From Clostridiales bacterium (GTDB taxonomy: Bacteria; Bacillota; Clostridia; Saccharofermentanales; Saccharofermentanaceae), in assembly GCA_017561715.1 (NCBI GenBank), contig JAFZBN010000021.1, positions 1 through 64,000 of the forward strand: a stretch of DNA of 64,000 nt, written 5' to 3'. The notes under the pieces were generated by a model. It saw only the letters and a list, made by a program, of their open reading frames with translations. It ran no database searches and had not been told where the DNA came from. Shown piece after piece: positions 19,942 through 25,277 of this stretch (positions within the stretch are counted from its first letter, which is position 1; every line of letters begins with the position of its first letter). Both the position numbers and the translations under genes were made by a program.

Positions 19942-19991
19942 CTTTATATTGATTTATAATGACGTTAAGTTATCTTTTAGGAGGTTATCTT

Positions 19992-20537
19992 ATGAAAACA
20001 CTGATCGTTGTTGACATGCAGACTGATTTTATCGATGGCGCGCTGGGTTCGAAAGAAGCCGAAAAGATCGTTTCAAACGTAGTAAAGAAGATCAAATCCT
20101 ATGTTAAGAAAGGTGACCGCGTGATCTTTACGCAGGACACACATAAGAAGACATATATGAATACCAGAGAGGGAAAGTATCTGCCGGTTCCGCACTGCAT
20201 TAAGGGTTCCGACGGATGGATGATTCCCGAAAAGATCCGAAAGGCCGCGCCTGAAGACACACTTGTCATCGAAAAGCCGTCCTTCGGGTACACCGGTTGG
20301 AAGAAGTTCCTTAAGGACGATAATGATCCGATCGAAGTCATCGGACTTTGCACGGATATCTGCGTTGTATCCAATGCGCTTACGATCAAAAACCTTTTCC
20401 CGGAAAGAGATATCATCGTTGATTCTGCATGCTGCGCAGGCGTTTCACCGGCTTCTCACGATGCTGCGCTCCTTACGATGAAGTGCTGCCAGATCGATAT
20501 CCTGCATGAGGGAAAAGAACCGTGGAGGGAAGCATAA
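19992..20537 (+). CDS. pncA: Nicotinamidase / isochorismatase-family hydrolase
   Basis: 181 residues. Hydrolyses nicotinamide to nicotinate for NAD salvage. Catalytic elements: VVDMQTDFIDGAL (Asp, about residues 6-18), a Lys in the mid region (VIEKPSFGYT), and LCTDICVVSNA with the nucleophilic Cys. The cis-peptide-type GLCTDIC pattern is typical. ATG 19992 has AGGAGG eight bases upstream; an upstream in-frame codon at 19959 lies in the putative -10. TATAAT (19955-19960) precedes it with a weak -35. Next to nicotinate phosphoribosyltransferase (one base gap), which supports the nicotinamidase call. Confidence 0.9.
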   Translation: MKTLIVVDMQTDFIDGALGSKEAEKIVSNVVKKIKSYVKKGDRVIFTQDTHKKTYMNTREGKYLPVPHCIKGSDGWMIPEKIRKAAPEDTLVIEKPSFGYTGWKKFLKDDNDPIEVIGLCTDICVVSNALTIKNLFPERDIIVDSACCAGVSPASHDAALLTMKCCQIDILHEGKEPWREA

Positions 20538-20538
20538 T

Positions 20539-21750
20539 ATGAAACTACATCCGATCATCACAAGTCTCCTTGAGACCGATATGTATAAGTTTTCCATGGG
20601 ACAGGCGATCTATCACCAGTTTCCGTCCTATAAGACGACATGGACATTCCGCTGCAGAAATAAAGACGTTAAGTTTACCGAGGAGATGATCCAGGAGATC
20701 AAGGATCAGCTTCAGGCGTACTGCAAACTGCGCTTTACGGAAGAAGAACTGCAGTATCTTGACGATATCAAGTGGATCAAGGGATCTTATGTCGACTTTC
20801 TGAGACTATGGGAGCCGAGATATGAGGATTTCGAGATCACTTCTGACGCGGAATGCAATCTTTCCATCGAGGCTCGTGGAACGTGGCTCAATACCTCTAT
20901 GTATGAGATCCCGACGCTTGCGATCGTCAATGAAGTCTATTTCCGTATGGCATATGACTATAACGACCTGATCAAGAGCTTTGAAGAACGTCTTAACGAG
21001 AAGGTCGGCTGGCTGAAGAGCGGTAAATACAGCCTTTCCTCGTTCAGTGAATTCGGTATGAGACGCCGTCTTTCGGCTGAGGCTCAGGAAATGGCCGTCC
21101 GTGCTCTTGCGGATGCGGATCTTTCCGGGACGGACAGTCACTTTGTCGGAACATCGAATGTCTACCTTGCCATGAAGTATAATCTGACACCTGTCGGAAC
21201 GATGGCGCATGAATGGATCATGTGTGTCGGACAGGGTGATCATAAGCATAATCCGGCGTATTCTAACTGGTATGCGCTTCGTGCCTGGGTCGATGAGTAC
21301 GGCGTTCTGAACGGCACCGCGCTGACTGATGCGATCACGACGGATTGTTTCCTTCGTGATTTCCAGCTGACGTATTCGACGCTCTTTTCCGGTGTGCGTC
21401 ATGACTCAGGTGATCCGATCGAGTGGGGCGAGAAGATGATCGCTCACTATAATTCTCTGGGGATCGACGCGACAACCAAGACGCTTCTTTTCTCGGACAG
21501 CCTGAATTTCGAAAAGGCCGATAAGATCTATAAGCATTTCCGTGGCCGCGCGAAAGTTGCCTTCGGTATCGGTACATATATTGCAAATGATACCTGTGTA
21601 CCTGCGCTTAACATCGTCATGAAGACAACGCTCTGTAACGGCCAGGATGTCGCAAAGATCTCCGATGTCGACGGAAAGGGCATGTGCAAGAACCCCGATT
21701 ACGTCAACTACTTGCAGCGTTGTATCGACTGGAGAATGGAACACGAGTAA
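20539..21750 (+). CDS. pncB: Nicotinate phosphoribosyltransferase
   Basis: 403 residues. Joins nicotinate to PRPP to make nicotinate mononucleotide, the step after PncA. The N-terminus LLETDMYKFSMGQAIYH is the family hallmark; GMRRRLS, GTMAHEWIM and GVRHDSGDP with FSDSLNFEKA give the phosphoribosyl site. ATG 20539 follows TGGAGGGA at 20523-20530 inside the end of pncA. The transcript ends at the terminator at 21784. Confidence 0.95.
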   Translation: MKLHPIITSLLETDMYKFSMGQAIYHQFPSYKTTWTFRCRNKDVKFTEEMIQEIKDQLQAYCKLRFTEEELQYLDDIKWIKGSYVDFLRLWEPRYEDFEITSDAECNLSIEARGTWLNTSMYEIPTLAIVNEVYFRMAYDYNDLIKSFEERLNEKVGWLKSGKYSLSSFSEFGMRRRLSAEAQEMAVRALADADLSGTDSHFVGTSNVYLAMKYNLTPVGTMAHEWIMCVGQGDHKHNPAYSNWYALRAWVDEYGVLNGTALTDAITTDCFLRDFQLTYSTLFSGVRHDSGDPIEWGEKMIAHYNSLGIDATTKTLLFSDSLNFEKADKIYKHFRGRAKVAFGIGTYIANDTCVPALNIVMKTTLCNGQDVAKISDVDGKGMCKNPDYVNYLQRCIDWRMEHE

Positions 21751-22006: not shown

Positions 22007-22060
22007 TTGTTTTATTGTATAATTGGAATAGAAACAGAAGTGAGGAATTGCGTAAAGAAT

Positions 22061-23479
22061 ATGGTCTCTTCAGGATCCAAAAGAAATATGGCCCGTCTTT
22101 CCGGCGTAAAACAGACAGTATCTCTATTGGTGATCTTATCGATCCTTTTGAGTTTTTCTCTTTCTTCCTGCAAAAAGACAAATAACGAATTCCCGACGAT
22201 CCCGACATCTGAGACATCTGAAACATCTGAATCCGAGACTTCCGAGACATCTGTCAAAGCAACCTCTCTGGAACTGACGATCGCGTCGCCTCTATCTTAT
22301 GAGACCTGTCAGTATCTGGCAAAGCTTTACTATGCGAAGGAAAACGGCCTTCTCGGTGATGGTGTTACCGGTTCGACGGTCGATCTGGCTTATCTTTCTT
22401 CGATCGATCTTCCTTTCGTTCTGAACGTATATACGACATCCGATAACGGCTGTAATGTCGCGACATTAAGTCAGTGGAAAGGTGAGGACATGCCGGATAT
22501 CTTCCTGACAGACAGTTTTGATCAGGCGGTCCTCAAAGGATATGCGCTGCCGATCAATGATTATCTTGCGGAGATCCCTCTGTTTTCTTCCGATCGGATC
22601 TATCCGGACCTCATCTCCGAGTTCCATGTAGAGAACAGTCAGTACGGTATTCCGTATCAAATGTCGGCGGCAGTGCTTTTCTGTGATATGGAAGTGCTTC
22701 GTCAGGCGGATATCCCGTCCGTTAACTTCAGGCAGAGTAAGTCGTCATTACTGGATCTTCTTTCCGAGATCTCCAAACTGAATGAAGAAGAAATGACCGT
22801 GCTTCCGTTTTATCTGGCTGCGAATATGGTGCCGTATCTTCCGTGTTCGATCTACAGCCGAGATTACCTTTCCGCATCAAACGGGGACGAGAGGATCGAT
22901 CCGAACTTCCGTGATTCCGTCTCTTATGTCGAATCCGTCATTACATCCGGTTATTCTTACGAGAGCTTGAGCGATGAAGATTCCGAGACCCTTTTCTCCG
23001 GTATTTCTCCGTTGCTTTCTCGTAAAGTCGGTATCTGGGCAGGAACAACAGATGAGATCCCGTTATATGACAACTATATGCCGAATACGCTGAATATGAT
23101 GCAACTTCCTGGAATCAAGGACGATGAGTATTCAGCACCGCTTATTATCGCTTATCCATTCTGCGTTTCATCTACCTGCAAGAATCCGAAAGAGGCTTGT
23201 GAGCTTGCTTCCTTCATCGCGCTTGATGAGGATGCGCTGCTTCTTATTTCGAGACTTTCGGAAAGAACCGGATATCTTCCGGTAGTAAAGACGCCTTCGG
23301 TTTGGCAGAGCACGGTAAAGAACCAGAAATACGGAAACTATTTGATGCAGTATCAGGAACTTATGGATCAGGCGATATTGATCCCGAAAGTTTCCGACAG
23401 CGTGAATTTCAGTAATGATCTGGAGTATATAACGAATTCGATCAATAAGACGATATCTTCGAAGAAGGATGATAACTAA
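22061..23479 (+). CDS. ABC-type extracellular solute-binding lipoprotein (orphan)
   Basis: About 472 residues. A lipoprotein signal peptide (VSLLVILSILLSFSLSSC, lipobox Cys) is followed by a Thr/Ser/Glu linker with repeated TSE units and a bilobal sugar-binding-protein fold typical of family 1 binding proteins (SQWKGEDMPDIFLTD; GIPYQMSAAVLFCD). No permease or ATPase gene is adjacent, so its transporter, if any, is encoded elsewhere. The start is uncertain: ATG 22061 and ATG 22088 are both possible and neither has a well-placed ribosome site; TATAAT at 22018-22023 makes 22061 plausible. Confidence 0.75.
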   Translation: MVSSGSKRNMARLSGVKQTVSLLVILSILLSFSLSSCKKTNNEFPTIPTSETSETSESETSETSVKATSLELTIASPLSYETCQYLAKLYYAKENGLLGDGVTGSTVDLAYLSSIDLPFVLNVYTTSDNGCNVATLSQWKGEDMPDIFLTDSFDQAVLKGYALPINDYLAEIPLFSSDRIYPDLISEFHVENSQYGIPYQMSAAVLFCDMEVLRQADIPSVNFRQSKSSLLDLLSEISKLNEEEMTVLPFYLAANMVPYLPCSIYSRDYLSASNGDERIDPNFRDSVSYVESVITSGYSYESLSDEDSETLFSGISPLLSRKVGIWAGTTDEIPLYDNYMPNTLNMMQLPGIKDDEYSAPLIIAYPFCVSSTCKNPKEACELASFIALDEDALLLISRLSERTGYLPVVKTPSVWQSTVKNQKYGNYLMQYQELMDQAILIPKVSDSVNFSNDLEYITNSINKTISSKKDDN

Positions 23480-23521: not shown

Positions 23522-24619
23522 ATGGCTGACATTCGATTATCGCCATTAAGAGTCTTGGACAAGACCAAGATCCGGGAGCAGGGAATCCTGGATCGTGTCA
23601 CTGATGATGTGTCTTCTTTTATCCGTTCGGTGCTTTCGGATCCGAACAGGAAGTACTTTACGGCCTCGTTTTTTGAGTTGGGAAAAGAACTGGTCTTCGG
23701 AGTTCTGGGCCTCGACGCTTATTCGGAAAAGAACCGAAGCGCGACTTCCGTGATGTATTTTGTTGATAAGATCACAGCCGAGGAAGGCGAGAGGAGCATT
23801 CCCGAAGATTACTTTGTATCCGCATTCGACAGCCTTCTGCGATACGCGTTTTTCGATCTTCAGATCCATAGGGTATCGACATTGATCCCTGTAACGGACG
23901 AAGCGTCCTCACGAATCCTCCTTGCCTGCAATATGCGCCAGGAAGCTCTTTTGGATGAGGCACTCTGTATCGACGGAGCTTTTTGTGACGCGGCATTGTT
24001 CTCGCAGCTGGATTCCGAGTATCCGAACTATTCAGTCGGATTTGTACCGTTTAAAAAGGGTGTTGTCGCGATCCGCGGAGATAATGATGTCGTTGAGATG
24101 ACGCAGTTCTTCGCTTATGGAAAAGAAGTGACCGGAAACCTGGAAAGAAACGTCGCGATCCGAACGGGGATCGCGGATGGTCACGGGGTCTTGAAAGAAG
24201 AAGGTTCACCGGAGTATAAGGATCTCATCAAGCTTGATTTCCCGGATGAAGTCAAGCGCTGCATGATCGAGTTCGGCGAGTATTTTTCGAAAAGAAGGAC
24301 CGGTTTTACCATTCACGCGAAGCCGCTTTATGGCAGTGATTTCCAAAAGAAGGTCTGGGATAAGGTCAGTACGATCCCTTATGGCGCTACCTGCAGTTAT
24401 GAAGATATCGCGCTCGAACTGACCGGCGGGGATAAGGTCTCTGCCAGAAATCTGACAAGAGCAGTTGGCTCCGCCTGCGGTGACAATCCGCTTCCGCTTC
24501 TGGTCCCATGCCATCGAATCATCGGTAAAGACGGCCGACTCGTCGGATTTTCCGGTGGACTTGAGATAAAAGAATTTCTGCTGAACCACGAAATGTTCGG
24601 CATTCATATAATCGATTGA
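23522..24619 (+). CDS. GNAT-like domain fused to methylated-DNA-protein cysteine methyltransferase
   Basis: 365 residues with two parts. Residues about 45-165 look like a GNAT acetyltransferase: LLRYAFFDLQIHRVSTLIPVTDEASS, then RILLACNMRQEALLDEAL and a D.ALFSQL end, the RimJ/RimL pattern. Residues about 255-360 are an O6-alkylguanine-DNA alkyltransferase: GSDFQKKVWDKVSTIPYG, TRAVGSACG (Arg finger region), VPCHRIIG with acceptor Cys330, and SGG. The methyltransferase repairs O6-methylguanine by transferring the alkyl group to its own Cys. This domain pairing is not the classical Ada layout. Start ATG 23522 has GAGAGGTAG before it. The flavin reductase gene follows by 16 bases. Confidence 0.82.
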   Translation: MADIRLSPLRVLDKTKIREQGILDRVTDDVSSFIRSVLSDPNRKYFTASFFELGKELVFGVLGLDAYSEKNRSATSVMYFVDKITAEEGERSIPEDYFVSAFDSLLRYAFFDLQIHRVSTLIPVTDEASSRILLACNMRQEALLDEALCIDGAFCDAALFSQLDSEYPNYSVGFVPFKKGVVAIRGDNDVVEMTQFFAYGKEVTGNLERNVAIRTGIADGHGVLKEEGSPEYKDLIKLDFPDEVKRCMIEFGEYFSKRRTGFTIHAKPLYGSDFQKKVWDKVSTIPYGATCSYEDIALELTGGDKVSARNLTRAVGSACGDNPLPLLVPCHRIIGKDGRLVGFSGGLEIKEFLLNHEMFGIHIID

Positions 24620-24635: not shown

Positions 24636-25277
24636 ATGAAAGTTGTAATGCCGCCATCCACGATGCTGAATCCGGTACCGGTCGTTATGGTTTCCTGTGC
24701 GGGAAAAGAACCGAAGAAGATCGAAAAGAGACCGAATATCATTACGGTTGCCTGGGCAGGAACGATCAATTCCGAACCGCCGATGGTATCCGTTTCGATC
24801 CGTAAATCACGTCACTCTCATGAATTGATCTGTGAGACTCAGGAATTCGTCATCAACCTGGTCACCGAGGATCTTGCCAAGTCCTGCGATTACTGCGGTG
24901 TAAGATCCGGAGACAAAGAAGATAAGTTTGAAAAAACAGGACTTACCGCGATTAAGGCGGATGGTCTGAAATACGCGCCGCAGATCAAAGAGGCGCCTGT
25001 ATCGCTGTTTTGCAAGTTGAAGGATATTATCGAACTCGGTTCCCATGATATGTTTCTTGCGGAGATCACAGGTGTTTCCGTTGATGAAAAACTCATTGAT
25101 GAAAAAGGTAAGATCTGCCTGGAAAAAGCCAATCTCGTGACGTATTCACACGGTGAATACTACACTCTCGGAAAAATGCTCGGTTTCTTCGGTTATTCTG
25201 TTGCTTCGAAAGAAGCGTTGAAAAGAAGGATGCCTTCGAAAAAAACAAAAAAATCTAACAAAAACGCCAACAAATAA
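24636..25277 (+). CDS. Flavin reductase-like FMN-binding protein
   Basis: 213 residues. Flavin-reductase-domain protein (split-barrel FMN fold): PVPVVMVSCAG near residues 13-23, NIITVAWAGTINSEPPMVSVSIRKSRHSHELI, and a FVINLV strand are the usual FMN-contact elements; C-terminal HGEYYTLGKMLGFFGYSVA. The last ~20 residues are a Lys-rich tail. The electron donor and physiological partner are unknown. It starts 16 bases after the alkyltransferase gene with AAGGGAGAA before ATG, so it is likely co-transcribed, but no common task is evident. Confidence 0.85.
   Translation: MKVVMPPSTMLNPVPVVMVSCAGKEPKKIEKRPNIITVAWAGTINSEPPMVSVSIRKSRHSHELICETQEFVINLVTEDLAKSCDYCGVRSGDKEDKFEKTGLTAIKADGLKYAPQIKEAPVSLFCKLKDIIELGSHDMFLAEITGVSVDEKLIDEKGKICLEKANLVTYSHGEYYTLGKMLGFFGYSVASKEALKRRMPSKKTKKSNKNANK

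Follow-up and report, generated by a model that had tools for sequence, protein, structure and literature searches.

What does an acetyltransferase fold do in front of a complete DNA repair protein? The question is raised by one gene in the window –the whole stretch of 64,000 nucleotides analyzed here, taken from contig JAFZBN010000021.1 of a Clostridiales bacterium (GCA_017561715.1). According to the structural model, the product of this gene in a gut bacterium is a 365-amino acid protein made of a GNAT fold and an entire O6-alkylguanine-DNA alkyltransferase of Ogt type (Table 1). The initial annotation, made from the sequence, had proposed that a RimJ/RimL-like GNAT domain was joined to a full alkyltransferase; the profile built from relatives, the Pfam searches and the fold alignments of the model bore this out.

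Table 1. The fusion gene, its parts and its two neighbors, in positions of the window.
Feature	Position	Strand	Evidence
Extracellular solute-binding protein, upstream neighbor; lipoprotein-like N-terminus by eye	22007..23479	+	PF01547 (SBP_bac_1) 32.7 bits vs. cut-off 26; translation may in fact begin past 22007
GNAT-fold/Ogt fusion gene	23522..24619	+	ORF and translation, ATG start, 365 aa; family searches; model
GNAT-fold domain, residues 1-168, probable pseudo-acetyltransferase (SpeG/RimJ/RimL type)	23522..24025	+	Profile match and VIA-align
PEDYFV, residues 94-99, at the place of the acetyl-CoA P-loop; loop absent	23801..23818	+	Position-specific comparison
Ogt N-terminal ribonuclease-like domain, residues 169-267	24026..24322	+	Fold alignment to OGT; PF02870 in homologues L115 and L208
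Ogt DNA-binding/active-site domain PF01035, residues 273-357	24338..24592	+	E 3.3e-27; active-site residues invariant, n=39
Acceptor Cys330 codon (PCHRIIG)	24509..24511	+	Sequence; invariant alignment column
Flavin reductase, downstream neighbor, 16 bases past the fusion gene	24636..25277	+	PF01613 E 9.2e-30

Single-sequence searches gave weak hits for the N-terminal part: residues 1-173 alone matched PF13302 at E 0.26, below the cut-off, the RimJ family model matched the protein at E 0.069, and phmmer against the PDB found 2z0z at E 0.0057. When the PDB was searched with a profile of 36 N-domains (A3), polyamine acetyltransferases of SpeG type matched at E 4.8e-18, and one homologue of the same order (L119) passed PF13302 (Acetyltransf_3; 30.3 vs. 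25.4 bits, E 7.9e-7) with PF01035 in the same ORF. The AlphaFold2 model, built from 41 sequences, reached a mean pLDDT of 90.8 and a pTM of 0.76. When it was used as Foldseek query against the PDB, the first match was Staphylococcus aureus SpeG and the second was Mycobacterium tuberculosis OGT. Residues 3-169 of the model aligned on SpeG with a VIA-align Z score of 19.3 (2.2 A, 153 residues aligned), so that structure prediction and fold search confirmed the GNAT fold proposed earlier; its limits, which had been placed at about residues 45-165, shifted to 1-168. The N-terminal part is not a mere extended MGMT N-domain –the reading that would have undone the first proposal–, as the fold alignment places the Ogt N-domain at residues 169-267.

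The rest of the protein has all the parts of an Ogt. PF01035 matched residues 273-357, including the PCHR motif, with 94.6 bits against a cut-off of 27, and TIGR00589 scored 95.2 bits against 46.4; the full MGMT signature with acceptor Cys330, recognized from the start, thus stood. Residues 169-365 of the model aligned on residues 1-161 of M. tuberculosis OGT (Z 18.8, 2.6 A, 158 aligned, 32% identity). Taken with the SpeG alignment of residues 3-169, this assigns the stretch between the GNAT domain and PF01035 to the Ogt N-terminal domain. The roughly 80 residues that had been called unexplained are therefore its normal ribonuclease-like domain: the Pfam search did not match PF02870 in the window protein itself, where the domain is assigned by fold, and two homologues of the same order reached the PF02870 cut-off of 21 bits there (L115, 21.4 bits; L208, 23.6 bits). 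Y293, R313, N322, C330, H331, and E357 are invariant among 39 aligned homologues and align with identical residues of the human or the M. tuberculosis enzyme; we take them to be human Y114, R128, N137, C145, H146, and E172.

Pfam searches of the window protein up to E 10 found no zinc methylphosphotriester domain, no AraC-type helix-turn-helix and no Endonuclease V domain, and the Ada model scored 63.7 bits against a cut-off of 345, over residues 269-357 only. No other match to the fusion protein was found at E 1e-3 in its genome, which is 92% complete; the cell therefore probably has no other alkyltransferase of the direct-reversal kind.

Whether the GNAT domain could still acetylate was assessed from its cofactor site. 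Active GNATs carry a P-loop with the pattern [Q/R]xxGx[G/A], as defined in the excerpts of PMC3814719. We counted its positions back from the helix phenylalanine F110. Ninety-five fusion ORFs were supplied, 25 went unscored because the profile fell short of Phe110, and 70 were counted, with exact duplicates alone removed, so that close relatives weigh repeatedly. The same profile also yielded the comparison set of 40 stand-alone GNATs, two of which (L142 and L158) are tandem pairs that were scored on their odd first domain. Glycine at -14 together with G/A at -12 was found in 0/70 fusions and 27/40 stand-alone GNATs, and glycine at -14 alone in 7/70 and 36/40, respectively. The motif-B Asn was kept in 11 of the 70 fusions vs. 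38 of the 40 stand-alone domains, and the alignment column of residue 133 held a Tyr in none vs. 13; we presume that the general acid of SpeG is a Tyr near this column.

The window protein reads PEDYFV where stand-alone GNATs have a GKG-type loop, and the loop is intact, as QGKGYA, in a GNAT domain encoded elsewhere in its own genome (contig C18, L214). A loose P-loop scan over the whole N-terminal part (23/96 fusions, 25/40 stand-alone GNATs) was judged meaningless because it ignored where the loop should lie, and we discarded it for the position-specific count. One ORF taken as a fusion by its length (L072) looked Ada-like at its N-terminus on inspection by eye, and we left it out of the count. 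From these sequence patterns, the earlier suggestion that the GNAT part had lost catalysis is probably right and the domain is probably a dead enzyme, a pseudo-acetyltransferase, although a loop missing in the sequence is no proof against the binding of CoA or another ligand.

The fusion is conserved across the order to which the bacterium belongs. Among relatives, 54/59 matched the fusion protein at E 1e-3 or better. The full-length profile (A2) had matches in 142/148 genomes of the order Saccharofermentanales and in 271/391 genomes of the class, and among the class matches listed, those spanning the N-domain all came from the order. Out-of-order matches listed began at model position 175 or later, mostly in frames of 150-220 aa –the usual length of ordinary Ogt ORFs outside the order, whereas the window protein has 168 extra N-terminal residues. 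At the level of the phylum, 248/299 genomes matched, and the window's own protein was the only full-span match among those listed. The search for the same domain order in Clostridia that had been proposed as a check therefore found the fusion and, among the matches listed in 391 class and 299 phylum genomes, found it restricted to Saccharofermentanales. A full-length homologue in 'Candidatus Scatonaster' (L008; 61% in the best segment), placed by NCBI in Saccharofermentanaceae, Saccharofermentanales, scored the same as the ORF of a same-genus genome (G007).

Three long ORFs outside the order were considered as fusions and rejected. One (G095, L213:772-1860) has, by eye, a ribonuclease HI-like start followed by an ordinary GNAT domain within one ORF, and no Ogt. 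Another (G132, L211:684-3068) joins a NYN ribonuclease-like domain to a complete Ogt in an ORF of 795 aa. In the third (G160), the Ogt lies near the start of the ORF and no further Pfam match was seen up to E 0.1. A few other listed matches with long frames outside the order, such as G556, G533, and G682, aligned with the profile over its Ogt portion only.

In a tree of 101 Ogt parts, the 76 fused or cluster Ogts of the order, with the long-branch outsider L067 grouped among them, formed a group apart from the 24 ordinary Ogts (support 99/97); the branching inside the clade of the order was poorly resolved. The second, stand-alone Ogt of one genome of sister family f2 (G056, L131) fell among the ordinary Ogts, so some genomes of that family keep both kinds.

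We read the gene neighborhood at chosen loci of the window's own family (f1) and of three sister families of the order (f2, f3, and f4). The f1 loci were uniform: 52/52 had a fusion-length ORF flanked directly by a solute-binding protein gene on its upstream side and by a flavin reductase gene on its downstream side. In f3, ORFs of 359 aa or more were present in 15/18 loci, a same-strand solute-binding protein gene in 15/18 (13 within 600 nt), and a flavin reductase gene in 17/18. The other three f3 loci (L113, L116, and L118) belong to one genus, g7, where an Ogt ORF of 178-191 aa without the N-domain sits in the same gene cluster, which indicates that the Ogt can do without it. All nine f4 loci had ORFs of 326-419 aa (that of L130 runs to the end of its stretch) and six had a same-strand flavin reductase gene, upstream in two; no solute-binding protein gene was seen in any of the nine. 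The 19 f2 loci showed neither a solute-binding protein nor a flavin reductase gene, and had ORFs of 339-557 aa (19/19) with folA directly upstream or fused (19/19) and thyA upstream (18/19). Pfam recognized thymidylate synthase in L113, L123, and L110 and flavin reductase in L113 and L110. Altogether, the fused and cluster Ogts of the order form an Ogt clade of their own, which is restricted to the lineage and whose gene neighborhood is conserved.

In f2 and f3, the fusion or Ogt gene is preceded by genes for thymidylate and folate synthesis, thyA and folA (e.g., L123:1038-3677 and L113:3-4076). Considering genomes with both genes listed, a same-strand folA no more than 5 kb upstream was present in 34/34 of f2, 13/15 of f3, and 0/8 of f4. 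In f1, folA was 69-244 kb away in the 12 genomes found with both genes on one contig. This linkage is not a general habit: among the matches listed, none of the 33 out-of-order genomes with both genes had folA within 5 kb of the Ogt. The simplest history would be an ancestral thyA-folA-SBP-(GNAT)Ogt-flavin reductase cluster that was trimmed differently in each family.

Other features of these regions deserve mention. The solute-binding lipoproteins beside the Ogt have strongly diverged, since Pfam is blank for L113:1234-2850 and L217:3-1343 despite their homology to window positions 22007-23479. In several f2 and f3 loci, separate GNAT genes whose acetyl-CoA loop is intact are found within a few kb of the Ogt (L242:2953-3501, L128:2021-2602, L113:5517-6104, L127, L118, and L111); the fused domain may have come from such a gene or may have its product as a partner. 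Within the window, at 19959-21750, nicotinamidase-like and nicotinate phosphoribosyltransferase-like ORFs overlap by eye, probably as a NAD salvage pair.

In two f2 genera (g154 and g156), dihydrofolate reductase is part of the protein. All five long ORFs scanned with Pfam (L205, L207, L208, L227, and L228) had DHFR_1 at the N-terminus (E 1.1e-32 to 7.9e-40) and PF01035 at the C-terminus, and a DHFR profile matched a sixth f2 protein (L206) in the same ORF. The middle part of these triple fusions, of about 145-150 residues, was not recognized as GNAT by profile A3. The N-domains of seven f2 proteins other than the triple fusions aligned to A3 with an hhalign E of 1.9e-4 (probability 47.5, 73 columns), and three f2 rows of the profile search (L123, L228, and L244) spanned the full profile. 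By these profile comparisons, the f2 middle or N-terminal domain is likely the same domain as the GNAT-fold domain of the window.

A physical or regulatory tie to thymidylate synthesis is thus conceivable, but the gene order alone may also mean shared transcription. A more far-reaching view, which we regard as speculative and rather doubtful, would make a single unit, physical or regulated, of thymidylate/folate synthesis and alkylation repair in the order. DHFR, the GNAT-fold module and Ogt are encoded next to each other or in a single polypeptide (DHFR-N-domain-Ogt); on this view, the GNAT-fold module would adapt DHFR to Ogt, and the window's family would have kept the adaptor when folA moved elsewhere.

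The N-domain is maintained, as judged from codon comparisons. Nei-Gojobori dN/dS was 0.07-0.17 for residues 1-168, in the comparisons with finite dS, and 0.005-0.042 for the C-terminal Ogt part. Synonymous changes were almost saturated in several pairs, and dS was not computable for some comparisons, so the low level is usable and the exact values are not. These ratios argue for an N-domain under purifying selection, yet less constrained and faster-evolving than the Ogt. Together with homologues of similar length in its own family, the low ratio of the N-domain makes clear that the fusion ORF is not a chance reading frame.

We consider it probable that residues 169-361 are a functional O6-alkylguanine-DNA alkyltransferase of Ogt type and that the N-terminal pseudo-acetyltransferase does not bind acetyl-CoA and serves a protein-protein, oligomerization, or stabilizing role. 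The fusion recurs among relatives within conserved gene clusters, and the job of the extra domain is therefore probably non-enzymatic. If the protein follows the mechanism of its family, the Ogt part would flip the alkylated base out of the DNA and Cys330 would take the alkyl group irreversibly, in a single turnover; the pseudo-GNAT would acetylate nothing and act as an interaction, oligomerization, or stability module of the Ogt. It is quite unlikely that the protein is instead bifunctional, with a GNAT that still acetylates polyamines or a protein terminus via an unusual cofactor site and couples acetylation to repair. The strong structural resemblance to active enzymes of SpeG/RimL type (Z 17-19), the selection on the N-domain and the conserved columns of F110, H116, and D156 speak for such an enzyme, but these columns, being common to active enzymes in the alignments, are probably structural, and the P-loop pattern (0/70), the motif-B Asn (11/70) and the Tyr of column 133 (0/70) are largely or wholly missing from the fusions.

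A GNAT domain fused once in an ancestor and now persisting as a foldable remnant without a function of its own appears unlikely too. Fusion-length ORFs kept in 52/52 f1, 15/18 f3, 9/9 f4, and 19/19 f2 loci, and dN/dS far below 1, argue against a decaying passenger, although its faster evolution relative to the Ogt, its absence from one genus and the listed f2 N-domain loci that the profile left unrecognized as GNAT, with a partial hhalign match, speak for it. The chances are slimmest for a ligand sensor, in which a small molecule –a polyamine or a nucleotide– would occupy the former SpeG-like pocket and tune the Ogt or its DNA binding: few N-domain columns are invariant (R35 and L144), even if the nearest folds are SpeG enzymes, several of them solved with polyamine bound, and the gene adjoins nucleotide-pathway genes in sister families.

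Compared with known proteins, residues 169-365 share the whole fold and the catalytic residues with M. tuberculosis OGT (4wx9 and 4wxc; Ogt/MGMT). Residues 1-168 have the fold of SpeG/RimJ/RimL (GNAT, PF13302), without their acetyl-CoA P-loop, motif-B Asn and Tyr in the residue-133 column. Escherichia coli Ada is an alkyltransferase with an added domain. Excerpts of a 2023 review describe the AGT-EndoV fusion of Ferroplasma and the histone-like AGT-2 of Caenorhabditis elegans, which retain the C-terminal part of AGT only (PMC10779285). By contrast with these, the window protein has a GNAT fold followed by a whole Ogt, and two sister genera put DHFR before both. The words 'acetyltransferase' and 'DHFR' are absent from the text of that review, and we found no report of a GNAT-alkyltransferase or DHFR-alkyltransferase fusion among the papers listed by searches of an open-access full-text library. 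The closest parallel for the N-domain is human O-GlcNAcase, whose pseudo-acetyltransferase is described in excerpts of PMC3814719 as likewise a GNAT fold on an unrelated enzyme, lacking the P-loop and not binding acetyl-CoA. That domain is C-terminal, on an animal glycoside hydrolase, and the likeness considered here is that of the GNAT fold.

The architecture is thus real, conserved across the order and unreported in the open-access literature searched, and it pairs a repair family with a pseudo-enzyme partner. It is a new architecture in a repair family for which natural fusions are scarce, and it offers a clear candidate for a GNAT fold retained as a non-catalytic part of another enzyme. 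In the sister genera with the triple fusion, gene fusion offers a possible link between DHFR/thymidylate synthase and direct-reversal repair, one that may be tested by expressing one protein.
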